DNA from: Rhodothermales bacterium
GTDB lineage: Bacteria > Bacteroidota > Rhodothermia > Rhodothermales > UBA10348
Direction of reading: 5' to 3'
DNA length: 64,000 nucleotides
Assembly (NCBI GenBank): GCA_017643395.1
Contig: JAEPNP010000004.1
Coordinates: 295,745 to 359,744 of the forward strand
Under the pieces are notes generated by a model. The model made no database searches. It saw only the letters and a list, made by a program, of their open reading frames with translations, and was not told the origin of the DNA. The translations under genes and the position numbers were made by a program. This document shows positions 19,048 to 31,341 of the stretch, piece after piece. The stretch's first letter is position 1. The number at the start of each line of letters is the position of its first letter.

Positions 19048-19181
19048 ACCCTATTCCCAACAATGGTGCCCGTCCCGTGGCGGGATCGTGATACATTCGT
19101 GACACGCCGGCCCTAGTTTCGGCGGCTTTGGGACCCTGCCCGTCGCCGTCCGCTCCCTCAAGGACCCCTTACTCTCAGCCC

Positions 19182-20177
19182 ATGCGTGGACTCTTCGTGC
19201 CGGCAGTGCTATTAGGCGCTCTGCTGCTGGCCGCTTGCGAAACCAGCGTCGCCCCTAGGGCCGGCGCGGATCGCCATTTCAGCCTTTACGGCGTGCTGAA
19301 TCCGACCGCGGACAGCCAGGCCGTGCTCGTATTTCCCATAGAAAACGAGTTGCGTGCCCTTCCCGACGAGCCGCTGGGAGTACGCGTCACCACTACAGAC
19401 CTCGCAGCCGGCCAGCAGGTGGTTTGGCAGGACTCTACCCGCATGACGGATGAGGGCGCCGTGCATGTGTACTGGTCGCGATTCCGGGTTGAACACGACC
19501 GCTCATACCGCCTGAACGTGGTCTCGGAGGATGGATCGCGGAACGCCGAGGTCACGGTGCATGTGCCTCCGCAGGCGGAGATCGTGCCGGGGACCATCGT
19601 CGACGGCCTGTGGGTCACGCAGGACATCGAGGTCACGGCGCCCATCGACCGCTTGAACTTTCTCAAGATCCAGTATGTGATCAAGGCCAAGCTGCCGGCC
19701 TCCAACTTGCCGTTTCCCGTGTTGAGCCCCGATCAGCTTCCGCCGTTCGGCACACCCCCTCCTCCCCCCTCGGATGACGACCCGAGTCCGCCGACGGATA
19801 CCCTGATCGTGCAGCGCCTGTTCGTGCCGATCGAGTATTCCGACAAGGCAACCGTGGATGGTGCGGGATGGAAGATCCCGATCAACTACTCGGACGATTT
19901 CCGGGAGATCAGGCGGCGCGTCTCCCAGCGCGGCAACGCCGATCCCATGTTCGGCATCCAGCTTGAGGCCGTGGAAGTGTCCTTTGTGGCGGCCAACGCC
20001 GAATGGCAAGCCCCGGAAGACGTGTATGATGCCGAGGTGCTCGTGCAGCCGGGCACCATGACCAACGTAAGCGGTGGCTTCGGATTTGTGGGTGCCGGCT
20101 ATCCCCTCTCGCACTCGTTCGTGCTCCCCGATGACATTCTGGTCCGCATTGGATTCCGTCTTCCCACCAGCAACTGA
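19182..20177 (+). CDS. DUF4249-type outer-membrane-associated lipoprotein (copy A)
   Basis: A 331-residue lipoprotein. The signal peptide MRGLFVPAVLLGALLLAAC ends in a lipobox (LAAC, Cys 19), which decides the start at 19182; the longer in-frame ATG at 19128 would bury it. The domain begins with HFSLYGVLNPTADSQ and ends with NVSGGFGFVGAGYPL, as in DUF4249 proteins, which are encoded beside TonB-dependent receptors in Bacteroidota and probably serve as partner lipoproteins. A proline/aspartate-rich linker (about residues 190-210, PPPPPSDDDPSPPTD) splits the domain. The receptor gene follows after four bases. Confidence 0.8.
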   Translation: MRGLFVPAVLLGALLLAACETSVAPRAGADRHFSLYGVLNPTADSQAVLVFPIENELRALPDEPLGVRVTTTDLAAGQQVVWQDSTRMTDEGAVHVYWSRFRVEHDRSYRLNVVSEDGSRNAEVTVHVPPQAEIVPGTIVDGLWVTQDIEVTAPIDRLNFLKIQYVIKAKLPASNLPFPVLSPDQLPPFGTPPPPPSDDDPSPPTDTLIVQRLFVPIEYSDKATVDGAGWKIPINYSDDFREIRRRVSQRGNADPMFGIQLEAVEVSFVAANAEWQAPEDVYDAEVLVQPGTMTNVSGGFGFVGAGYPLSHSFVLPDDILVRIGFRLPTSN

Positions 20178-20181
20178 CGCC

Positions 20182-22458
20182 GTGAAGTTTTTTAGCCTCC
20201 TGGCGGCCATGTTGCTGGCCGCACCGCTTGCCTCCGCCCAGTCCGGGTCCATCCGTGGTTTTGTGACCGATGCCGACAACGGTGAATCCCTGGAATTCGT
20301 GAACGTCGTGGCTCGGGCCGACGGAGAGCTCAGGCGCGGGTCCGTCACCGACCTGAACGGGTTCTTTGTGCTTACGAGCATGGCGTCCCGCTCCTACGAG
20401 CTGACGGCGACCTTCATCGGTTACGAGACCTTCATTGACACCGTGTTTGTGCCGACAGGCCAGTCAATCACGGTCAACATCGCTCTTGTGCCCGACCAGG
20501 AGGTCATGGATGAGATCCTGGTTGAGTCCGAGCGGAGCACCGGTGCCGCGCGCGTCACGGCGGGGCAGCAGACGGTGCGCCCGGAAGACATCGACCTGAT
20601 CCCCGCGCCCGATGTTTCGGGTGACCTGGCGACGCTGTTGCGCACGCTTCCCGGTGTGGTCTCCTCCGGTGACCGGGGCGGACAGCTCTTTGTGCGTGGA
20701 GGAGAGCCGTCCCAAAACCAGGCGCTGCTGGACGGAATCCTGCTCTACCAACCGTTCCACATCCTCGGATTCTACAGCGCGTTTCCGGCGGAAATCATCA
20801 ATCGGGCGGACATCTACGCCGGCGGATTCAAGGCCAAGTTCGGCGAGCGCATCTCGTCCGTAATGGACGTCTCCACGCGCAACGGCAATAACCGCCAGTT
20901 CGAAGGTTCGGCCTCCGTCTCTCCCTTTGTCAGCGCGGCCCATCTGGAGGGACCGATCGTGCCCGGCAAGCTGACGCTGTTGACGTCCGTGCGCAAGTCA
21001 CTCGTGGAGCAGGCTGCAGCCGACCTTGTGGGCCAGCCGCTGCCGTTCGACTTCGGCGATGCGTTTGCCAAACTGAGCGCGGTGTTCGACTCCAACCAGC
21101 GCGCCTCCATTACCGCTCTGTCCACTCACGACCGGGGCACGCTCGGCCAGGACCTGGGTTCAGAAGTACAGCCTGAGGAGATTCGCTGGGAGAACCGCGG
21201 AATCGGCGCTCGCTATGTGATTTTGCCAAGGCGATTCCCCGTCTTCTTTGAGGCGAACGTCTCCTATTCCAGCCTGGAGAGTTCGCTTGGCCCGGCAGAC
21301 GATCCGTCCCGTTCCACGTTCATCGAGAACGGGCACGCCATGATCGATCTGCAGTTCTTCCGTGAGCGAACCACATGGAACGGCGGAGCCAGCCTGCGCA
21401 CCGTGCAGCTGCAGAGCGATATGGGCGGGTTGTTCCAGAACTTCGAACGCAGGAGTGACCGGCTGCTGCATTTTGGCCTGTACCTGGAGCCTGAATACGC
21501 CGTCAACCAGCACCTGAAGGTCCGGCCGGGCCTGCGTGCCCAGTTCTTTGACGTGCGTTTTCAGCCGTTTCTGGAGCCACGGCTCCGGATTCTGTACGAG
21601 CGTGGAAACCACGAATTCAGCCTGGCAGGCGGGTACTACGAGCAGGCCGAGATCGGGCTGTACGACCGTCGAGACGCTGCAAGTGTCTTTATGGCATGGA
21701 CCAACGCCATTGCCCGCAGCGAGCGGTTTGAAGAGGTCTCCGAAGGTCGCGTGCAGACCGCCATCCACGGACTGCTTGGCTACCGCACGTCGCTGCCGGC
21801 TGGCATCGAGTTGTCGGCCGAAGCATACGCCAAGCGTCTGAACAACCTGTTTATTTCCGAGTGGACGGCATATCCGCGGTTTACGACCAACCTGCAGCCG
21901 GCAACGGGCCGGAGCTATGGCTTCGATCTCCGGGCGGAGATCCGACGACCCCGATTCTACGGCTATCTGACGTACGGCCTGTCCAACACGCGATATGCCG
22001 CCGAACAGGCGCAATTGCGCCTCTGGTACGGCACGGAGTCGCTCGAATTCAGGCCTCCCCATGACCGCCGGCACCAGGTGAACGCTCTGGCCTCGACCAC
22101 GGTCAAAGAGTTTGACGTGAGCGTGCGATGGGAATTCGGCTCGGGCCTGCCCTTCAGTCGCGTCGTCGGGTTTGACGGGTTTGCCCTGGTCAACGGCGTC
22201 ATCAACCCATTCGAGGTGGACGTCAGTCGCCGTGTGATCTATGAGCGGCCTTTCTCCGGCGAGCTTCCTGCGTATCATCGCATGGACGCATCGGTGGCCC
22301 GCTCCTTCGAAGTCGAGCGTGCCGAAGTAACCCTGCAGGCGTCCGTCATCAATGCGTATGACCGGGCCAACCTGTTCTATCTTGACGTGTTCACGCTTCG
22401 CCGCGCCGACCAGCTGCCGTTCGTGCCCAGCCTGGGCATCAAGGTCGCCTTCAGGTAG
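20182..22458 (+). CDS. TonB-dependent receptor with carboxypeptidase-regulatory-like N-terminal domain (copy A)
   Basis: A 758-residue outer-membrane transporter. With the GTG start at 20182 it has a signal peptide (KFFSLLAAMLLAAPLASAQ), a CarboxypepD_reg-like beta-sandwich (about 20-105: SIRGFVTDADNGESLEFVNV), a plug domain (about 120-230, with TLPGVVSSGDRGGQLFVRGG) and a beta-barrel ending in an aromatic residue (final KVAFR). The in-frame ATG at 20074 lies inside the upstream gene and lacks a signal peptide, so it is rejected. It lies four bases after the DUF4249 gene. It is shorter than SusC-type receptors (about 1000 residues), so a small substrate such as a siderophore or peptide is more likely than glycan. 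Closely similar to copy B downstream. Confidence 0.9.
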   Translation: MKFFSLLAAMLLAAPLASAQSGSIRGFVTDADNGESLEFVNVVARADGELRRGSVTDLNGFFVLTSMASRSYELTATFIGYETFIDTVFVPTGQSITVNIALVPDQEVMDEILVESERSTGAARVTAGQQTVRPEDIDLIPAPDVSGDLATLLRTLPGVVSSGDRGGQLFVRGGEPSQNQALLDGILLYQPFHILGFYSAFPAEIINRADIYAGGFKAKFGERISSVMDVSTRNGNNRQFEGSASVSPFVSAAHLEGPIVPGKLTLLTSVRKSLVEQAAADLVGQPLPFDFGDAFAKLSAVFDSNQRASITALSTHDRGTLGQDLGSEVQPEEIRWENRGIGARYVILPRRFPVFFEANVSYSSLESSLGPADDPSRSTFIENGHAMIDLQFFRERTTWNGGASLRTVQLQSDMGGLFQNFERRSDRLLHFGLYLEPEYAVNQHLKVRPGLRAQFFDVRFQPFLEPRLRILYERGNHEFSLAGGYYEQAEIGLYDRRDAASVFMAWTNAIARSERFEEVSEGRVQTAIHGLLGYRTSLPAGIELSAEAYAKRLNNLFISEWTAYPRFTTNLQPATGRSYGFDLRAEIRRPRFYGYLTYGLSNTRYAAEQAQLRLWYGTESLEFRPPHDRRHQVNALASTTVKEFDVSVRWEFGSGLPFSRVVGFDGFALVNGVINPFEVDVSRRVIYERPFSGELPAYHRMDASVARSFEVERAEVTLQASVINAYDRANLFYLDVFTLRRADQLPFVPSLGIKVAFR

Positions 22459-22480
22459 CCGCCCTCTCCCGCCCGAGCAC

Positions 22481-24742
22481 TTGCTTCGAGAACACGTCGC
22501 CCTCAGGATCAGCTGCATCCTGCTCCTGTTCGGCCTCGTTCTGTTCGCGGCCCCGGCGACCGCCCAGACTCACGCGGTCAGGGGTCTTGTGACGGACGCC
22601 TCGGACGGACGGCCCCTCCCCGGAGCCAACGTGCGGCTGCTCCAGCAGGGCCGGCTGGTTGACGGAGCGGTCAGCCGGGGAGACGGGCTCTATCAGGTGT
22701 CGAATCTTTCGGCCGGCCCCTACCGGGTAGAGGTCACATTCGTCGGTTTTGTAACGCACGTGGATACCGTGCGCCTCGGGGACGCCGACTTCTACACCCT
22801 CAACGTGGCCCTGCGTCCCGCCACCGAAGAGCTGGAAGAAGTCGTTGTTTCCGCCGAGGCAGGCATGGCCGCCACGGACGCCGGTTTACAGGTGGTTCGT
22901 GGCTCGGATCTGCAGCGCATCCCGACTCCCGACGTGTCCGGGGATCTTGCTTCGTACCTGCAGGCCATGCCGAGTGTGGTGTTCCTGGGTGATCGTGGCG
23001 GGCAACTGTACATCCGTGGCGGAACTCCATCGCAGAACCTGGTGCTCATGGACGGGCTGCAGGTGTACCAGCCCTTTCACATCGTCGGGTTCTTTTCGGC
23101 GTTCCCGGAAGAGCTCGTTTCCTACGCCGACGTCTACGCCGGGGGGTTCGGGGCACGCTATTCCGGGCGCCTGTCGGCCGTGGTTGACGTCAAGACCCGT
23201 TCGGGCGATGTGAACAACAGCCGGTCCTCACTGGCCTTCAGTCCATTCCTGATGTCGGCCACGTCCGAGGGCCCGTTGACCCGGGGTGTGACCTCCTGGC
23301 TGGCGTCGGTGCGCAAATCCGTTATCGAGCCTGTCTCTGGCACCTTTTCCGATCAGGCGCTTCCGTTCTCATTCGGCGACATTTTCCTCAAAGTCAACCG
23401 GGCGGACCGCAGCCGGGCCACCTGCTCCTGGACCACACTGCACACCTGGGACAGAGGCCTGATAGATCCCGACGACGAGTCCGATGACGTATTCCGCTGG
23501 AACAACACCCTGACCGGCGGTCGCTGCCTCACGTTTCCTTCGGCCTCCCCCTACCTGTTTGAGCTCACGGGTGGGGTCTCCCATGTGAGCAATGAAGTCG
23601 GGAATCGCGACGATCCGGAGCGCAGTTCGTCCGCGCTTCGAGCGCATTTCGGCATCGACCTCACGCGCTTCCTGAACGAGTCTGAGTTGGGCATGGGGTT
23701 CCACACCTCCATGAGCTGGCTTGGCTTCCGCCTCGGGGAGCAGTTCGGCGTCTTTGAGGAGGAAAACGATCTCCTGTTCGATGTCGGGGGCTACGTCTGG
23801 TCAACCATCGCACTGGGACCAAGGACCTCGGTCAGCCCGGGCCTTGCGGTGACGTTTCGCAAGGATCAACCCGCGTCGTTTGAACCACGGCTTCGCCTAG
23901 CCTGGAACGCACCGTTTGGCGGCGAAGTGACCGGCGCGCTTGGGCGATACACCCAGACTCTCGTAGGCATTTCGGACGAACGCGATGCCGGCAGTGCATT
24001 CATCGCCTGGATGTCGGATCCGTCAGGTGGGGCGCAGGCGCGCGCCATCCATGCATTGGCGGGCTACAAAACCCGACTGGCGTCGCGCTGGCACATCGCA
24101 TCGGAAGTCTTCCACAAGCGCATGCGGGAGCTCCCGGTGCCGATCTGGAGCACGATTGCGAGGTTCACAACGACGCTGGACCTGGTCAAGGCAACGTCTT
24201 CCGGGGCTGACCTGCGGCTTGAATACACCGGTCCCCGCTGGTACGCCTACACCAGCTACGGATTCTCACGCACGCTCTACCGCGCCGAGCAGGAGCAGTT
24301 TTTTGAGTGGTTTGGCGAGCCGGTTCAGGAATACAACCCGCCTCACGACCGGCGCCACCAGGTCCAGGCACTGATCGGATACTCGCTTTCGGGCTTCGAT
24401 CTCAGCGTGCGGTGGCAGTACGGTTCCGGACTGCCGTACACACGGCCCATCGGTTTCGACGAGCAGTTGCAATTCGACCCCCTGGCAGATCCGCGAGAAG
24501 ACTTCGGCACGACTCGCATCCTCTATCGCAAGCCCTATCAGGCACGCCTCCCGGGGTACCATCGTCTGGACGTTTCCGTCGAGCGCCGGGTAACCGGCCG
24601 CAAGGCTCAGCTGACGCTGCGTGGCGGGGTCATCAATGCCTACAATCGCGACAACCTGTTCTATTTCGATCTCTTTACCGTGCGCCGGGTGGACCAGCTC
24701 CCTCTCATCCCGATTCTCGGCATCAAGTTGGACCTGCTGTGA
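22481..24742 (+). CDS. TonB-dependent receptor with carboxypeptidase-regulatory-like N-terminal domain (copy B)
   Basis: A paralog of copy A: signal peptide (RISCILLLFGLVLFAAPATAQ), CarboxypepD_reg-like domain (HAVRGLVTDASDGRPLPGANV), plug with AMPSVVFLGDRGGQLYIRGG and a barrel ending GIKLDLL. The two receptors share the same block order and almost the same C-terminal motif (RRxDQLPxxPxLGIK). The start is uncertain. I chose the TTG at 22481, 22 bases after copy A stops; the in-frame ATGs at 22352 and 22358 lie inside copy A and would place about 45 foreign residues before the signal peptide. The stop overlaps the GTG of the following lipoprotein gene by three bases. Confidence 0.87.
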   Translation: MLREHVALRISCILLLFGLVLFAAPATAQTHAVRGLVTDASDGRPLPGANVRLLQQGRLVDGAVSRGDGLYQVSNLSAGPYRVEVTFVGFVTHVDTVRLGDADFYTLNVALRPATEELEEVVVSAEAGMAATDAGLQVVRGSDLQRIPTPDVSGDLASYLQAMPSVVFLGDRGGQLYIRGGTPSQNLVLMDGLQVYQPFHIVGFFSAFPEELVSYADVYAGGFGARYSGRLSAVVDVKTRSGDVNNSRSSLAFSPFLMSATSEGPLTRGVTSWLASVRKSVIEPVSGTFSDQALPFSFGDIFLKVNRADRSRATCSWTTLHTWDRGLIDPDDESDDVFRWNNTLTGGRCLTFPSASPYLFELTGGVSHVSNEVGNRDDPERSSSALRAHFGIDLTRFLNESELGMGFHTSMSWLGFRLGEQFGVFEEENDLLFDVGGYVWSTIALGPRTSVSPGLAVTFRKDQPASFEPRLRLAWNAPFGGEVTGALGRYTQTLVGISDERDAGSAFIAWMSDPSGGAQARAIHALAGYKTRLASRWHIASEVFHKRMRELPVPIWSTIARFTTTLDLVKATSSGADLRLEYTGPRWYAYTSYGFSRTLYRAEQEQFFEWFGEPVQEYNPPHDRRHQVQALIGYSLSGFDLSVRWQYGSGLPYTRPIGFDEQLQFDPLADPREDFGTTRILYRKPYQARLPGYHRLDVSVERRVTGRKAQLTLRGGVINAYNRDNLFYFDLFTVRRVDQLPLIPILGIKLDLL

Positions 24743-25608
24743 GGTGCATATTCCTGATAGCATTCCTCGGGCTTGCGGTCGCCGCGTGTGACACGGCAAT
24801 CGACCCATTCGATCGGGACGGACTGCAATTCTCGATCCAGGGATACCTGGACGCTCAGGCGGACACACAATACGTGCGGGTCACCCCGCTCAGGGACTCC
24901 CTTGCTCTGAATCTGTTCGAATCGCCGGACTACACCGTGGAGCTCCATCACGAAGTCGATGGGCGCACGGTGCGCATGCAGGACTCCCTCTTCCGTTTCG
25001 TCGGCGGGCGTTTCGCCTACAACTGGTGGGCTTCTGGAGAATTGGAGCACGGTCGGGGCTATCGGCTAACCGTGCAGGGTGCGGACGGGGCCACCAGCTC
25101 GGTCCGGGTCCAGATTCCCGAGTCTATTCCCGAGATGGAGCTGATCATTCCGCGCGACCCCTTCACTCCGCTGCGATTCCTCACGCAGGCCATCAAGATC
25201 CGCAAGGTCGAGAAGCTGGCCGCCCTGCAGCTCAAGTATCGCGTGGTCTTTCCGCCGCAAGTGGAGGCGGAGCCACAGATTGTCAACATGTCAATTCTGC
25301 AGCGCGTCGGACCTATCGGGCCCGACCTCGGAATCGCCTTTTTCCCCTACAAGGACCTCATGGCCCGGTTCGACGGAGCCTGTCCGCTGGTCCTGTCTAC
25401 AGAAGTCATTCTGGCGGCCTCCACGGATGACTGGCCGGACCTGGAGGGCATTGATCCTGAAACCCTCGCGCGGCCGGACGTGATCTCGAATGTGGAGAAC
25501 GGAGTGGGATTTCTCGGCGGCCTGAGCATCACCCGAGAGGACTGGGGCGAGCTCACGCAACTGGCCCAGGGCCTGCAGTTCCAATGTGAACGGGGTACGT
25601 ACTTCTAA
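24739..25608 (+). CDS. DUF4249-type lipoprotein (copy B)
   Basis: A 289-residue lipoprotein whose GTG start overlaps the TGA of the receptor (GTGA). The signal peptide RCIFLIAFLGLAVAAC has a lipobox ending at Cys 17, which fixes this start; the frame is open further upstream but has no signal there. The mature domain opens with LQFSIQGYLDAQADTQYVRV and ends with NVENGVGFLGGLS, paralleling copy A. It is presumably the surface or periplasmic partner of receptor copy B. The 77 bases to the convergent photolyase gene hold no obvious terminator. Confidence 0.8.
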   Translation: MRCIFLIAFLGLAVAACDTAIDPFDRDGLQFSIQGYLDAQADTQYVRVTPLRDSLALNLFESPDYTVELHHEVDGRTVRMQDSLFRFVGGRFAYNWWASGELEHGRGYRLTVQGADGATSSVRVQIPESIPEMELIIPRDPFTPLRFLTQAIKIRKVEKLAALQLKYRVVFPPQVEAEPQIVNMSILQRVGPIGPDLGIAFFPYKDLMARFDGACPLVLSTEVILAASTDDWPDLEGIDPETLARPDVISNVENGVGFLGGLSITREDWGELTQLAQGLQFQCERGTYF

Positions 25609-25685: not shown

Positions 25686-28091
25686 TCATGTCTGGAAAAG
25701 CGAGCCCTGGGACGCCGGGTACGCACTCAGGCGCTGGTCCCGAAGGAGAAAGCCTGCCGCCGCGATGCCGCTGAGCCAGGCCCCTTCGACCCGGCCACCA
25801 TTCAGCCAGTCGCCGGCAAATGCCAACCGATGCTCGGCGTCGTAGTGGGCGCCACCCGAGAACTCGTCGGCCGATCCCAGCGCATAACGCCACCGGTGCA
25901 CAAACCGGTCGTTGACGGCGGGCCAGGGCTCGCCGAGCACGCGTGCTCCGGCCTGCATCAGATGGGTGGCCACCGCTTCGGGGTCGTCCTCCAGGTGTGC
26001 GGAGGACCACTTCGGGCCCGCCTGAAGTACCCACACAGCCTCGCCCGGCCGCTCTGGTTTACTCGAATTTCTGGCGATCCAGGACAGGGGGCCATCGTTG
26101 ACAAAGACCCCGTCAAACTCCGATGCGTGATCTGCCTCCAGTCGGAGTACCACTGTCCAACAAGGATGCATCCTGGCATCCGGAACGAGGCGCTGATCCA
26201 GCCCCGAAGCCTGCATGAGCGATGAGGCCTGCGGCTGCGGAACGGTCACTATCAGTGCATCAAAGTCCGAACGCGACTCACTCTCGGCGTGCACGGTCCA
26301 CCCGCTGACGGACCGCTCCACACGCCGCACGGTGGAGCCGGTCACTACGTGAAGATCCGCCGCCAGATGACCAGCTACAGCATTGTTGGTTGGTGTGCCG
26401 ACCCAGCGCCTTGGTCCGCCTTGCTTGTCAGTCAGGGTGCCGTTTTCGAACGCGCCGAGGCGTCCCTTCCAAAGGGCCACCACGCCCGCCTCCTCCCAGA
26501 TACGCACCCATCGCTCGAATCGCGGGTCGCGCGCCGTGAAGTATTGAGCACCATGATCGCAATCCGCGCGCGACGCCAGGCGCCCGCCCGGCCGGCTGCC
26601 CTTGTCAAAGAGGCGCACTTCACATCCATTGTCCTGAAGGGTGCGCGCAGCAGCAAGGCCCGAGATTCCGGCTCCGATCACCGCTACGGTCGGTCGGACA
26701 AACCGGGTTCGGATGCGCTGCGCGTAGGCTTCCATGTCCAGCCGGCGCGCGTGCGCCGCGCTGCTTCGCGGGCGCAGCAATCCCAGGACCGGCTTCTCCG
26801 GCGGGAAGGGACGGTCAAACAATCCCATGCACCACAGAAGGCCACCGTAGGAGTTCGGGTCCGAGCCGTCGAGGGCATATCGATTGTTCAGATCGAGGAG
26901 GTAAGCGAGCGCTTCCTCTGGTGTGCGACCCCACTCGACCAGCTTCTTCCCCCACGTCATGCGCAGATTGTTGTGTAGCTCGCCGTTTCGCAGTAGTGAG
27001 GTCTGGGCGAGATTCCAGAGTTCATCGCCCGTACCGGCCCGCTCGATGGCCTCGGCGCTGTACGTGTCGCGAGGATCGTCTCTGTGCTTCTCTAGCGTGT
27101 CAAGGGCCCAGTCAGGCAGTGCCGTGAGGCCCCGCAGACCCCGCGTGTGGTAGCAATAGTTGTGGGCCAACTCCCGCCACACGAACAGCTCGTCCAGATA
27201 CTTCTCGGCCCCCTTCCCACCGGCCGCAGCTGCCTCCCGGGCAAGGCGCATAGGGGACACGCAGCCATAGTGCAGGTAGGCGGACATCCGGCTCACGCCT
27301 TGGGGACTCGGGACGCCAGCGTCATTGCGTTTGCGGGCGTAGCCGCTCAAGCCTTCCTTCAGGAAGCGGTTCCAGCGGCCATAGCCAGCGGCTGACCCTC
27401 CGGGCGTATCCGGGACCGGGCCGACGGAGTGGTCGATGCGGCACCGGCTGACCAGTTCAGGAATCGGCACTGCCCAATCCACGAGGCCTTCTCCCAGTTC
27501 GAGCCCATCGGCCTCCCGCGGCCGATGGCTCGTTTCAGGCCACTGCATGCCCACACGGCGATCGAATTCGGCGCCAACGGCTTGCCTGAACTTGAAGGCC
27601 CGGTCGAATCGTCGGCCGGCAAGTTGCATCGGCACGATGCAGTGGCCGTCCACAGCGACCACTGGTCCCGAAGCGTCATCAAGCAGCCCATCCGTCCACC
27701 TCGGAAACGGCGGCACCGGAAAATCCTCCACGACGGTAAATGCCGCGCGTCGGAACAACCGCCTCAGCGGCGACGGCTCGGAAGGGTCTTCAGGCAGGAA
27801 GAATGCCGCGCAGATCCCGTCGCGGGTCAGCGCCGAATGTACTTCCCGCGCGCTCTCGAGGATGAAGGTGAAGTGCCGGTCATTGTTGTGCGGGTGCTCC
27901 CCTGCAAGGCCCGACCACACCACAAGGGGTTTACCCAGGGTCGCCGCCGCCACCCGCGCGACGTCCAGGGCCGGGTTCTCATGATCCCGCATCGCATGAT
28001 GCATCCAGTACAGCACGAACTCTCCGGTGGAGGCATGACCATCCTGGAGGATGCGCGTTCGTTCCTTGAGATGAGGCGGAAGTTCGATCAT
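25686..28091 (-). CDS. Fusion protein: class II-like DNA photolyase + renalase-like FAD-dependent amine oxidase
   Basis: An 801-residue fusion. Residues 1 to about 460 resemble a class II CPD photolyase: an N-terminal antenna-type Rossmann domain (EFVLYWMHHAMRDHENPALD) and an FAD-binding helical domain with SRMSAYLHYGCVSP, ELFVWRELAHNYCYH, LWNLAQTSLLRNGELHNN, RMTWGKKLVEW and NRYALDGSDPNSYGG. Class II enzymes repair cyclobutane pyrimidine dimers using blue light. From about residue 466 a second flavoprotein starts: VAVIGAGISGLAAARTLQ (dinucleotide-binding), a glycine-rich SRPGGRL, DHGAQYFTARDPRF and a final FAGDWLNGGRVEGAWLSG FAD-contact motif, as in renalase-type NAD(P)/FAD amine oxidases. 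The frame is continuous. I chose the ATG at 28091; a GTG at 28184 would overlap the upstream gene by 14 bases and add a non-homologous 31 residues. Confidence 0.88.
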   Translation of the reverse strand: MIELPPHLKERTRILQDGHASTGEFVLYWMHHAMRDHENPALDVARVAAATLGKPLVVWSGLAGEHPHNNDRHFTFILESAREVHSALTRDGICAAFFLPEDPSEPSPLRRLFRRAAFTVVEDFPVPPFPRWTDGLLDDASGPVVAVDGHCIVPMQLAGRRFDRAFKFRQAVGAEFDRRVGMQWPETSHRPREADGLELGEGLVDWAVPIPELVSRCRIDHSVGPVPDTPGGSAAGYGRWNRFLKEGLSGYARKRNDAGVPSPQGVSRMSAYLHYGCVSPMRLAREAAAAGGKGAEKYLDELFVWRELAHNYCYHTRGLRGLTALPDWALDTLEKHRDDPRDTYSAEAIERAGTGDELWNLAQTSLLRNGELHNNLRMTWGKKLVEWGRTPEEALAYLLDLNNRYALDGSDPNSYGGLLWCMGLFDRPFPPEKPVLGLLRPRSSAAHARRLDMEAYAQRIRTRFVRPTVAVIGAGISGLAAARTLQDNGCEVRLFDKGSRPGGRLASRADCDHGAQYFTARDPRFERWVRIWEEAGVVALWKGRLGAFENGTLTDKQGGPRRWVGTPTNNAVAGHLAADLHVVTGSTVRRVERSVSGWTVHAESESRSDFDALIVTVPQPQASSLMQASGLDQRLVPDARMHPCWTVVLRLEADHASEFDGVFVNDGPLSWIARNSSKPERPGEAVWVLQAGPKWSSAHLEDDPEAVATHLMQAGARVLGEPWPAVNDRFVHRWRYALGSADEFSGGAHYDAEHRLAFAGDWLNGGRVEGAWLSGIAAAGFLLRDQRLSAYPASQGSLFQT

Positions 28092-28170: not shown

Positions 28171-29175
28171 TCAGCGAATGGCACCTCCGATCACACGAAG
28201 GGTGTCGGGTGTGGGCGATGCGGGATCCGGCGGCCACACGCCCTCATAACCGCCCGGTAGCTCCTGACGGAGAACCAGCGGGAATTCGAGCGGCCCCGAA
28301 TCTGTCGTACTGCGCGACGCCGCCCGATAGAACCAGGCCGCGCCACCCGAGGAATGCACGCCCAAGGAATCCGCCGAAATAGTGACGGCCACGCCTTCGT
28401 CCAGCCCCAGCCCGTGAATCTCGTCGCGGCTCACCAGGGCCTGGAAGCGCGCCATGAACGCGAGCAGGCGCCCCTCTCGATTGCGCTCGGAAAAATGCGT
28501 GTCCACAAGGATTCCAGCCAGCTCATCCTGCGCCACGGGCGACCGCATAATGGTCACGCCAAGCCCGTCCGGGTCCGCGAGGGCTTCCTGCGAGGTCACG
28601 CTGGCGTTGCGGGCGTCGAATGCGGCCTCTCCCAACACCATCGCGCCGGCAGAAGTACCCCCAATGGCCGCGCCACTGTCGGCCCTGGCCGATATCGCCT
28701 CGTGCAGGGTGTCCGGCCAGCCGCCCAGGTAGCGCCACTGGTCTCCACCAGCGAGCCAGATGGCCTCCGCCCCCCGAACCTTGCACAGTACGCCCGCGTC
28801 GCCGCCCGCCGCGCCGACGGCCTTGATGGTGCGCACCGTGCGCGGCGCGGGGTCCGCGTCCAGTTGCTGCCCGAAATATTCGGGGTAGGAAGTGAGCGAG
28901 CCGGATGCCCGCAGCACCAGCACATCGCCCGCGTTTGCGGCCTCTACAAACCGCCGCGAGGCCGTGTCATGCTCGCGCCCGCCTCCCATGAGCACTATGG
29001 TGCGATGCGGTGCTCGGCGTGCATCGGCCAAACCTCCCGCCAGATCGAATGTCTCCGCGCCGCCGGAAATGGCGGGGCACTCTCGAGGCACCGGGGGATC
29101 TGTGCTCTCCTCCGGAACGACCGGGCTCGAGCCGCAGCCGATCAGGACCGCACCGAGAAGCAGGGCTGATCGCAT
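28171..29175 (-). CDS. Cyanophycinase-like lipoprotein, peptidase family S51
   Basis: A 334-residue protein with a lipoprotein signal (MRSALLLGAVLIGC, Cys 14). The S51 fold is shown by IWLAGGDQWRYLGG, the nucleophile elbow IGGTSAGAMVLGE (serine) and VDTHFSERNREGRLLAF, all hallmarks of cyanophycinase/peptidase E relatives, which cut beta-aspartyl or similar peptides. Members with signal peptides are usually extracytoplasmic; whether the substrate is cyanophycin is not shown here, and no cyanophycin synthetase is in the window. The ATG follows the TAG of the MscS gene with no gap. The photolyase fusion gene follows downstream. Confidence 0.85.
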   Translation of the reverse strand: MRSALLLGAVLIGCGSSPVVPEESTDPPVPRECPAISGGAETFDLAGGLADARRAPHRTIVLMGGGREHDTASRRFVEAANAGDVLVLRASGSLTSYPEYFGQQLDADPAPRTVRTIKAVGAAGGDAGVLCKVRGAEAIWLAGGDQWRYLGGWPDTLHEAISARADSGAAIGGTSAGAMVLGEAAFDARNASVTSQEALADPDGLGVTIMRSPVAQDELAGILVDTHFSERNREGRLLAFMARFQALVSRDEIHGLGLDEGVAVTISADSLGVHSSGGAAWFYRAASRSTTDSGPLEFPLVLRQELPGGYEGVWPPDPASPTPDTLRVIGGAIR

Positions 29176-30039
29176 CTAGCCGACTTGTCTGACCTCAACA
29201 GGGGCAAGCTGAATGGTCTCATACGGCATGTTGATGCCTGCCTCATTCAGCGCCTCAAAGATGCGCTCCCTCAGTTCAAACCGCATTTTGATGTGCTCCC
29301 GCTCATCCTCGATCCAGGCCTGCAACATGACCTCCGTGTTGTAGTCATTGAGGGCCGTGACGACCATGCGGGGCGGCGGCTCCGTCATGAACCCGTCCTG
29401 CTTTCGGACCAGGGCCAGGAGAATCCGTCGCACGTGGTCCAGGTTTTCGCTTACGTCAACCGTGACTGCTACGTCCAGCCGCAGATGCGGGAAGTTGGTG
29501 TACGATGTCACCGTACTGTTGATGATCGTTGTATTGGGCACCGCCAGCATCTTGCCGTCCACGGTCACCACACGCGTGCTGCGCAGGGTGATTTGATCCA
29601 CGCGGCCGTAGTGACCCTCGACTTCCACCAGGTCGCCGATCACGAAGGGGCGGTCCCAGAAAATCAGAATGCCCGAAATCAGGTTGGAAAGGGCATCGCG
29701 AGCCGCAAAACCGATGGTCAGGCCGGCCAAACCGAGACTGGCGACCACGGCACCAGTGTCGATCCCCGTGGCCGCAAGCGCCTGGACAACGCCCAGAGTC
29801 AGCACCAGGAATTTCAACGCGGTCTTGAGGAAGCTGGCGGAGGTTTCATCGATCCGGGAGGACCGCTTGATGATGGACCGAAGCACCAGATCCAGCAGGC
29901 GCCAGACCAGATAGAAGGCCGCAAAAACCGCCATGCCAACCACCAGACTTGCGGCCAGCACGCCGAGTGCCTCGGCGATGGAATCGAGCTGAAACTGCTC
30001 CTGGAGCCGTGTCAGCACACCGTCAACGAATTCGCCCAT
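29176..30039 (-). CDS. Small-conductance mechanosensitive channel, MscS family
   Basis: A 287-residue inner-membrane channel, the same size as E. coli MscS (286). It has an N-terminal amphipathic stretch, two helices, and the pore-lining helix in GAVVASLGLAGLTIGFAARDAL followed by SNLISGILIFWDRPFVIGD, the signature between pore and beta-domain. The cytoplasmic beta domain (GRVDQITLRSTRV, AVPNTTIINSTVTSYT) and the alpha/beta C-domain are complete. It opens on hypo-osmotic shock to release solutes. It sits three bases after the M20 peptidase stop and directly abuts the cyanophycinase-like gene, so the three are probably co-transcribed. Confidence 0.93.
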   Translation of the reverse strand: MGEFVDGVLTRLQEQFQLDSIAEALGVLAASLVVGMAVFAAFYLVWRLLDLVLRSIIKRSSRIDETSASFLKTALKFLVLTLGVVQALAATGIDTGAVVASLGLAGLTIGFAARDALSNLISGILIFWDRPFVIGDLVEVEGHYGRVDQITLRSTRVVTVDGKMLAVPNTTIINSTVTSYTNFPHLRLDVAVTVDVSENLDHVRRILLALVRKQDGFMTEPPPRMVVTALNDYNTEVMLQAWIEDEREHIKMRFELRERIFEALNEAGINMPYETIQLAPVEVRQVG

Positions 30040-30042
30040 GAT

Positions 30043-31341
30043 CTATGAGTTGTCAGATCCGGCCAGGCGCCAGATCAGGATGGCTGCACGCCGGGTCTGC
30101 ATTTCGAGCGTGGGCAGGTCAATCCATTCGTCCACCGTGTGGTCGTCTCCCCCACCCGGACCGAGCCCATCGATGGCCATCTCCACGAGCCCGGCGGTAA
30201 AGGACACGTCCGCCGCACCGGCGTTCCGAGGGTTCACCGGGGCCACCGGTCCGTGGCCGAGGTCACGGCTCACCTCGTCGAACAGGGCCAGCAAACGGTA
30301 GTTGCCCTCCGTCGGTGCCAGCGGCGGATAGCCGTCGTCAAACTCGATGGTGGCCTCGGTCCCCGGTAGATTGTGGCGCGCCACAAAGCGCATGCGCTCT
30401 CTGGTGCGCTCAAGCTGCTCAAGAGAAATAGCCCGCAGGTCCCCGGTGACGATCGCGTGCTCGGCCACCACGTTGTTCTTGCCGAACGCCGTGCCGTCGG
30501 CCGAAAATGCGTCGTGACTGACCTCGGTACCGCCGACAATAAACCCCGGGTTGAAGGTCAGATTCTGCTCCCCGGCCAATGCCTCATAGAACCCGGCCAG
30601 TATGCGCGAGGCCTCGTAGATGGCTCCAGCGCCCACCGTCGGCTGAAACAACTGACTCGAATGCGCAGGTGTGCCCTTGACGGTGAGCTTCCAGCCGGTA
30701 GAGCCCCGACGTGCGACCACGGCTGTACGCGGATTTGAATCTCCGTTTTCGAATGCCAGCGCGATGTCGGCATCTCGGGCCGCATCGATCAGGTCCTTAC
30801 GGGCCGCATCGAGCGGACGGCCGCTGCGCTCTTCATCGCCCGTCAACACCACGGTAAGCGTGATGCCGTCGAGCACCCCTGCTCGCCGGAGTGCTCCGAG
30901 GGCGTGCACAATTACCGTGTTGCCGCCTTTCATATCGACCACGCCCGGTCCGTCCGCACGGTCCCCATCACGTTCAAATCGCTGAAAGGGACTGTCGGGC
31001 TCGAACACGGTATCCAGATGCCCGATCAGAAGCAGATGTGGCCCTGATCCGCTACCCTGGTGGCGGGCAATCAGGTGGCCGGCGCGATCGAACCCGCTGC
31101 CGTCGACCCACTCGGTTTCCAGACCGATCGCGTCGAACTCGCGGGCGTAGAGCTCACCGACGGCACGCACGCCATCAAAGTTCATGGTGCCCGAGTTCAG
31201 GTTGACGGCCGTTTCCAGCAGATCGATGGCGGCATCGGCCCGACTGGCGACTTCGTCTAGAATGCGGTCTTCGGTGGCCGTTGTCTGGGCGGCAACCGGA
31301 GGAGCCAGGAGGAGAATCAGGAGGGGGATCAGCAGGCGCAT
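30043..31341 (-). CDS. M20 family metallopeptidase (glutamate carboxypeptidase-like), exported
   Basis: A 432-residue protein with a cleavable signal peptide (MRLLIPLLILLLAPPVAAQ). Metal ligands of the M20 family are visible in order: LIGHLDTVF (His, Asp), GVVDMKGG (bridging Asp), TGDEERSG (catalytic Glu and ligand Glu) and a C-terminal GGGDDHTVDEWIDL (His). The dimerisation insert lies between about residues 205 and 320. It resembles CPG2-type carboxypeptidases that remove C-terminal residues from peptides or folates; being exported, a role in periplasmic peptide turnover is likely. It is the first gene of a unit with mscS and the cyanophycinase-like gene. Confidence 0.9.
   Translation of the reverse strand: MRLLIPLLILLLAPPVAAQTTATEDRILDEVASRADAAIDLLETAVNLNSGTMNFDGVRAVGELYAREFDAIGLETEWVDGSGFDRAGHLIARHQGSGSGPHLLLIGHLDTVFEPDSPFQRFERDGDRADGPGVVDMKGGNTVIVHALGALRRAGVLDGITLTVVLTGDEERSGRPLDAARKDLIDAARDADIALAFENGDSNPRTAVVARRGSTGWKLTVKGTPAHSSQLFQPTVGAGAIYEASRILAGFYEALAGEQNLTFNPGFIVGGTEVSHDAFSADGTAFGKNNVVAEHAIVTGDLRAISLEQLERTRERMRFVARHNLPGTEATIEFDDGYPPLAPTEGNYRLLALFDEVSRDLGHGPVAPVNPRNAGAADVSFTAGLVEMAIDGLGPGGGDDHTVDEWIDLPTLEMQTRRAAILIWRLAGSDNS

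Follow-up and report, generated by a model that had tools for sequence, protein, structure and literature searches.

A class II-type DNA photolyase is joined in a single chain to a renalase-like flavoprotein domain in a Rhodothermales bacterium, and this join is kept across deep divergence among bacteria. The gene lies in a 64,000-nucleotide stretch of genomic DNA, called the window below. We give about an even chance to the reading that the fusion is a bifunctional photodamage-repair protein, which would act on DNA photoproducts and on damaged nicotinamide cofactor, its two flavins exchanging no electrons. The recurrence of the fusion in distant bacteria hints that the bacterial enzyme belongs to the light-damage response, and the fusion, taken together with the co-occurrence of renalase and photolyase genes in other genomes (see below), ties bacterial renalase to light damage. 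The fusion also represents a natural two-flavin photolyase in which inter-flavin transfer could be measured.

One Open Frame for Two Flavin Enzymes

The minus strand of positions 25686–28091 is a single open frame of 801 codons that starts with the ATG at 28091 (an alternative GTG start at 28184 would give 832 codons), and the plus strand of the same interval contains stops. The photolyase domain (residues 9–459; 26715–28067, minus strand) and the renalase domain (residues 468–788; 25728–26690, minus strand) are separated by a short junction, the gap of approximately 8 residues between the two matched ranges (residues 460–467; 26691–26714, minus strand). In the 14 fusion proteins compared, 21–24 residues lie between the last photolyase helix region and the first FAD motif. 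The initial annotation had proposed that a class II-type photolyase and a renalase-like flavoprotein share this chain, with key motifs in both, and profile as well as solved-structure matches bear this out. Its further claim, that the gene is neither an assembly join nor a decayed pseudogene, also stands, as both explanations are ruled out by 13 other genomes that show the whole two-domain architecture, with the junction near 26695 recurring in independent genomes and the frame unbroken in all 14, and by the low dN/dS of the renalase half. Elsewhere, either the same domain order or the two genes as neighbors were found.

The Photolyase Half

Residues 9–459 match the NCBIfam profile TIGR00591 (phr2) with 301.4 bits (E 1.6e-89), which is below the curated cut-off of 550.05, and PF00875 covers residues 26–156 with 25.9 bits, short of its cut-off of 26.6, and scores 29.3 bits when the genome is searched. 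The best solved matches of residues 10–459 are the photolyases 8oet and 2xry (E about 1e-62), which we take to be the class II CPD photolyase of Methanosarcina mazei. The fusion resembles that enzyme over these residues, catalytic and dimer-contact residues included, and differs from it by a W431F replacement, by its position in a clade of its own and by the attached renalase domain. Solved-enzyme numbering was transferred by hand onto the window protein via the alignment. All 17 members of the fusion clade (see below) keep R256, E301, W305, W360, M379, W381, W388, N403, W421, D428, R429 and R441, and N257 is kept in 16 of them; W431 is replaced by F in 17 of 17, and is the sole listed lesion, FAD or tryptophan-chain position that is changed throughout. 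W359, W380 and W387 of the window protein (within 26931–27017, minus strand) are the counterparts of the W360/W381/W388 tryptophan chain, which serves photoreduction; each of the three is kept in every clade member and in all 56 stand-alone class II sequences. Of these 56, only 11 have W at position 305, and 43 have E at position 301. R256, N257, E301, W305, M379, W421, D428, R429 and R441 bind the lesion in a solved class II enzyme, and some class II enzymes are reported with F at the W431 position (PMC6126647). Judged by these alignments, the N-terminal half resembles the class II photolyases and keeps their catalytic residues. The organism's genome carries two further PF00875 genes, and whole-protein searches of it gave one match among the candidates scored, the window gene itself.

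The tryptophan chain has a bearing on an electron relay between the domains, which we regard as unlikely. In this scheme, which takes up the flavin recycling suggested in the initial annotation, a dihydropyridine donor would load the renalase flavin, and this flavin would in turn convert the FAD of the photolyase to FADH- in darkness, maybe via the surface end of the chain, and would let repair proceed without waiting for photoreduction. Such a relay would agree with two flavin domains sitting on a short junction of conserved length, with a photolyase clade that is never seen without renalase (15 members fused, 2 cut by contig ends) and with FAD positions that are kept even in fusions lacking the renalase signature. 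However, the chain required for photoreduction is intact in 17 of 17 members, so that a reductase is not obviously needed, no renalase is found in the mostly short flanks scanned beside stand-alone class II enzymes, and the two AlphaFold models of the fusion (single-sequence, mean pLDDT 37.5; three-sequence, mean pLDDT 42.8) are both too poor to measure the flavin distance.

Class II enzymes elsewhere use 8-HDF. CofH has no match in the organism's own genome, which is 98.4% complete (control search: 11 of 14 named genomes, three above the cut-off), so deazaflavin is probably not made there. It is conceivable, and in our estimate very improbable, that the FAD of the renalase half replaces deazaflavin as an antenna, harvesting blue light and handing the excitation to the photolyase FADH-; against this, seven of 15 fusions retain the renalase signature, which argues for catalysis.

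The Renalase Half

Residues 468–788 match the solved renalases 3kkj and 4zcc (the latter entitled 'Renalase'), presumably of Pseudomonas origin, with E about 1e-59, and Pfam finds Amino_oxidase and NAD_binding_8 in this half. The window protein combines a whole-length renalase match with a dinucleotide motif, the signature DHGAQYFTARD (residues 512–522; 26526–26558, minus strand), which is common to the solved renalases and most stand-alone sequences, and a C-terminal GDW motif. The entire C-terminal half is thus like bacterial renalase, with GAQYFTARD in common, and differs in being placed behind a photolyase and in the alteration of the signature in part of the fusions. The signature stretch is kept in seven of the 15 renalase halves compared (with Y517F and R521K once each) and altered in the other eight, which come from two genera of the organism's own family, along with C644, W671 and A673. 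All 15 halves keep GxGxxG, GGR, D512, G514, G760 and E769, which we assume to belong to the FAD fold; 14 keep D761.

Since eight of the 15 halves lack the signature, one substrate for all fusions is not possible. In the two closest fusion pairs, both from the altered-signature set, dN/dS of the renalase half is 0.017/0.216 (~0.08) and 0.075/0.441 (~0.17), values near those of the photolyase half. This purifying selection makes an altered substrate likelier than decay, and the second half of the altered-signature sub-clade has, on these comparisons, probably changed its substrate.

In the bifunctional reading, the N-terminal half would bind cyclobutane pyrimidine dimers, which its FADH-, excited by near-UV/blue light, would split, and the C-terminal half would oxidize the 1,2- and 1,6-dihydro-NAD(P) isomers, expected to come from non-specific reduction, photochemical included, to NAD(P)+. 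Oxygen would be the final acceptor. The two halves would be coupled in that they are supplied together in the light, and the flavins would exchange no electron. Renalases (the human enzyme) oxidize 1,2- and 1,6-NAD(P)H, and such isomers arise from the photochemical reduction of NAD(P)+ (PMC7660482). The bifunctional reading draws on the whole-length matches of both halves to solved enzymes, on the lesion-contact and FAD positions that are kept, on the purifying selection acting on the renalase half, and on the oxidation of photochemically formed NAD(P)H isomers by renalases; the loss of the signature in eight of 15 fusions speaks against it.

Distribution of the Fusion

Complete fusions were found in 14 genomes in total. 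Whole-genome searches covered the organism's own phylum, the phylum of a Desulfobacterales bin and the class of a gammaproteobacterial bin; only part of the first-look candidates was scored and misses are possible, so that all genome counts are lower bounds. In the organism's order, at least 11 of the 114 genomes searched have a complete fusion frame, and four more carry fusion pieces at contig ends (G457, G448, G407 and G404). Matches, cut ones included, occur in 12 of the 27 genomes listed for its family; of the two other genomes of its genus, one has the fusion and the other does not. A draw of 394 genomes from the phylum gave five with the fusion, all within the same order. Among 247 genomes from the phylum to which the Desulfobacterales bin belongs, one has the fusion (a further draw of 118, overlapping this set and not added to the tally, gave none), and among 321 from the class to which the gammaproteobacterial bin belongs, two have it. 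The genome-contig scan returned L004 and L005, which are two of these outside fusions, and L006, in which the photolyase stands alone.

Among plasmids, 37 records match the query, and none reaches 80% coverage in one place. In viral contigs, the one pattern match of the whole protein and the 24 of the renalase alignment gave no confirmed relative, and a viral origin was rejected. Note also that the long frame of L043 is a stand-alone renalase behind an apparent chance open frame, and that L006, L026 and G227, in which the first matches extended beyond residue 500, were rejected as fusions when tblastn showed no renalase.

Descent of the Two Halves

In a tree of 73 photolyase domains, 17 of the fusion kind lie on one side of a branch with an SH-aLRT of 100 and all 56 stand-alone class II sequences fall across it. 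The 17 comprise the 14 complete fusions, L038, in which the contig breaks off within the renalase, and two sequences (L039 and L040) whose contigs end before the renalase and which are presumed fusions by their place in the clade. The photolyase tree leaves out L041 (52 residues) and the renalase tree leaves out L038 (100 residues); L036, a copy of L035, was excluded. Homologs that stop after the photolyase domain, a case considered in the initial annotation, were not seen in this clade (15 fused, 2 cut by contig ends); as stand-alone sequences are among the best matches of the searches, an unfused member should have been seen. The simplest reading of the photolyase tree is one old fusion followed by later transfer between phyla.

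In the renalase tree, seven changes are needed to account for the 15 fused sequences, which are interspersed among stand-alone renalases, mostly from the organism's own phylum; a more careful tree of 33 sequences agrees, with a single fused clade not rejected (AU p 0.084). Renalase halves may possibly have been split off or exchanged. Across the 14 fusions, mean identity is 41.8% for the renalase half and 57.8% for the photolyase half, the former being lower in 90 of 91 pairs.

Both this faster divergence and the mingling would agree with a fusion without joint function, a chance single joining that harmed neither half and left the two independent of each other and of NAD(P)H photochemistry. 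The altered signature in eight of 15 fusions and a window context unrelated to light point the same way. We nevertheless hold this to be rather unlikely, given purifying selection on the renalase half, a clade in which no unfused member was seen and which is spread over three phylum-level groups, and the strong co-occurrence of renalase and photolyase in other genomes.

Gene Neighborhoods

In the window, the fusion gene follows three genes of the same (minus) strand, which encode an M20 peptidase (30043–31341), an MscS-type channel (29176–30039) and an S51 peptidase (28171–29175). These three and the fusion possibly form one transcript, and the three would stand outside the proposed function. 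Ten light-related or linked proteins were sought in the window, and only a short-chain dehydrogenase was matched, with 26% identity and 25 kb away. Neighbors that are peptidases and a channel, with none of the light genes sought lying near, weigh against a bifunctional repair protein.

Around the fusions of other genomes (14 stretches, with L147 and L152 counted as near-copies), DUF429 occurs in nine, a short-chain dehydrogenase in seven, the photolyase-related DPRP in six, FolE in five, a second amine-oxidase-like FAD protein in four, and a B12-binding regulator, PTPS and DUF2256-DUF3253 in three each. L149 has none of these recurring neighbors, and L144 is a short contig with the fusion only.

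The DUF429 gene adjoins the fusion in L141–L143, L145–L148, L152 and L153. The DUF2256-DUF3253 protein, of unknown function, lies near the fusion in three genomes, each of a different and distant group (L140:3869–4348, L150:2357–2881 and L151:7630–8073). The gammaproteobacterial bin has another photolyase gene (L151:10571–12148), which starts divergently right next to the fusion. On the plus strand of the window, the fusion is preceded by two successive pairs of TonB-receptor-like and weakly DUF4249-like genes (19128–25608), of which the second DUF4249-like gene scores under the Pfam cut-off.

Stand-Alone Renalases and Photolyases

In a draw of Pseudomonadota, all 39 renalase-bearing genomes have a photolyase, as against 108 of 260 others. 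Thirty-eight of the 39 are among the 146 photolyase-positive genomes of a set of 298, which we take to be the 299-genome renalase set minus G1315, and the 39th was found positive separately. The Fisher p is 1e-13 for 38 of 38, and 2e-13 after removal of the fusion-bearing genome, with genome size, lifestyle or oxygen use, and kinship uncontrolled. Among the 18 earlier renalase genomes other than G465, the photolyase check covered the three that recur in the 39-genome set.

At the level of gene position, 15 of 54 stretches with stand-alone renalases from Pseudomonadota (18 and 36 pooled; L117, L121, L122 and L130 are shorter than the others) carry a gene for a photolyase, or for a protein like one, at a distance of up to about 8 kb, the background by our own estimate being 0.65% per 17-kb stretch, and the other 39 have no photolyase nearby. 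Eight of the 15 are of one near-kin type with similar spacing, in which renalase and a full photolyase lie 2–3 kb apart, with MerR-like and YbgA-like genes in between in those looked at. In L124 the photolyase and renalase frames overlap, photolyase first as in the fusion, and in L193 they nearly touch in the opposite order. In the organism's own phylum, no photolyase was found near any of seven stand-alone renalases, and no renalase was found alongside any of 58 loci with a stand-alone photolyase, almost all of them class II (flanks mostly about 1.5 kb). The renalase neighbors L027:6890–8116 and L128:6670–7554 are photolyase-like with the FAD-binding domain only, the N-terminal photolyase domain being unmatched.

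The co-occurrence, the proximity in 15 of 54 stretches and the DPRP, FolE and B12-regulator neighbors of the fusions link renalase to light and thereby favor the bifunctional reading; the 39 Pseudomonadota stretches and the seven of the organism's own phylum without a photolyase, and the 58 photolyase loci without a renalase, tell against it. The photolyases that adjoin stand-alone renalases are of other kinds, namely full PF00875+PF03441 proteins and FAD_binding_7-only proteins. Because renalases adjoin non-class-II photolyases and none lies beside the stand-alone, nearly all class II loci, the neighbor pattern is explained by a common role in light stress no less well than by a reductase dedicated to class II enzymes. 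It would be a bolder step, and seems to us quite unlikely to be correct, to view the two flavins as one unit, in which electrons of light-made NAD(P)H isomers, or excitation, feed the photolyase FAD, and bacterial renalase as generally a photolyase partner and not a housekeeping enzyme. If this were true, a by-product of cofactor photodamage would power the repair of DNA photodamage.

Relation to Known Light-Responsive Systems

In the literature covered, mostly outside subscription journals, we found nothing that links photolyase with renalase or describes such a fusion. In Pseudomonas, the pmlR1 region contains phrB, a short-chain dehydrogenase, an FAD-dependent oxidoreductase and ufaM, a second light region contains folE and cryB, and light is reported to raise pmlR1, phrB and ufaM (PMC9758184). 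These regions differ from the fusion in that the genes are separate and the photolyase is of a class other than II, and they resemble the eight near-kin renalase–photolyase stretches, whose genomes may be Pseudomonas, as their gene order suggests. The FAD-dependent oxidoreductase of the pmlR1 region is a candidate counterpart of the renalase. An amine oxidase belonging to the RpoE-ChrR core regulon was rejected as the renalase, as PMC5507510 gives a separate gene.

We also would like to point out two plasmid-borne examples, from five stretches picked by hand out of 20 listed matches (one for its annotated neighbor) and standing outside the 15 of 54. On a Polymorphobacter plasmid (L028), the renalase gene lies near bacteriorhodopsin and carotene dioxygenase genes, and on a Rhizobium plasmid (L030) it lies near genes for a sigma factor and a ChrR-type anti-sigma factor and near folE.
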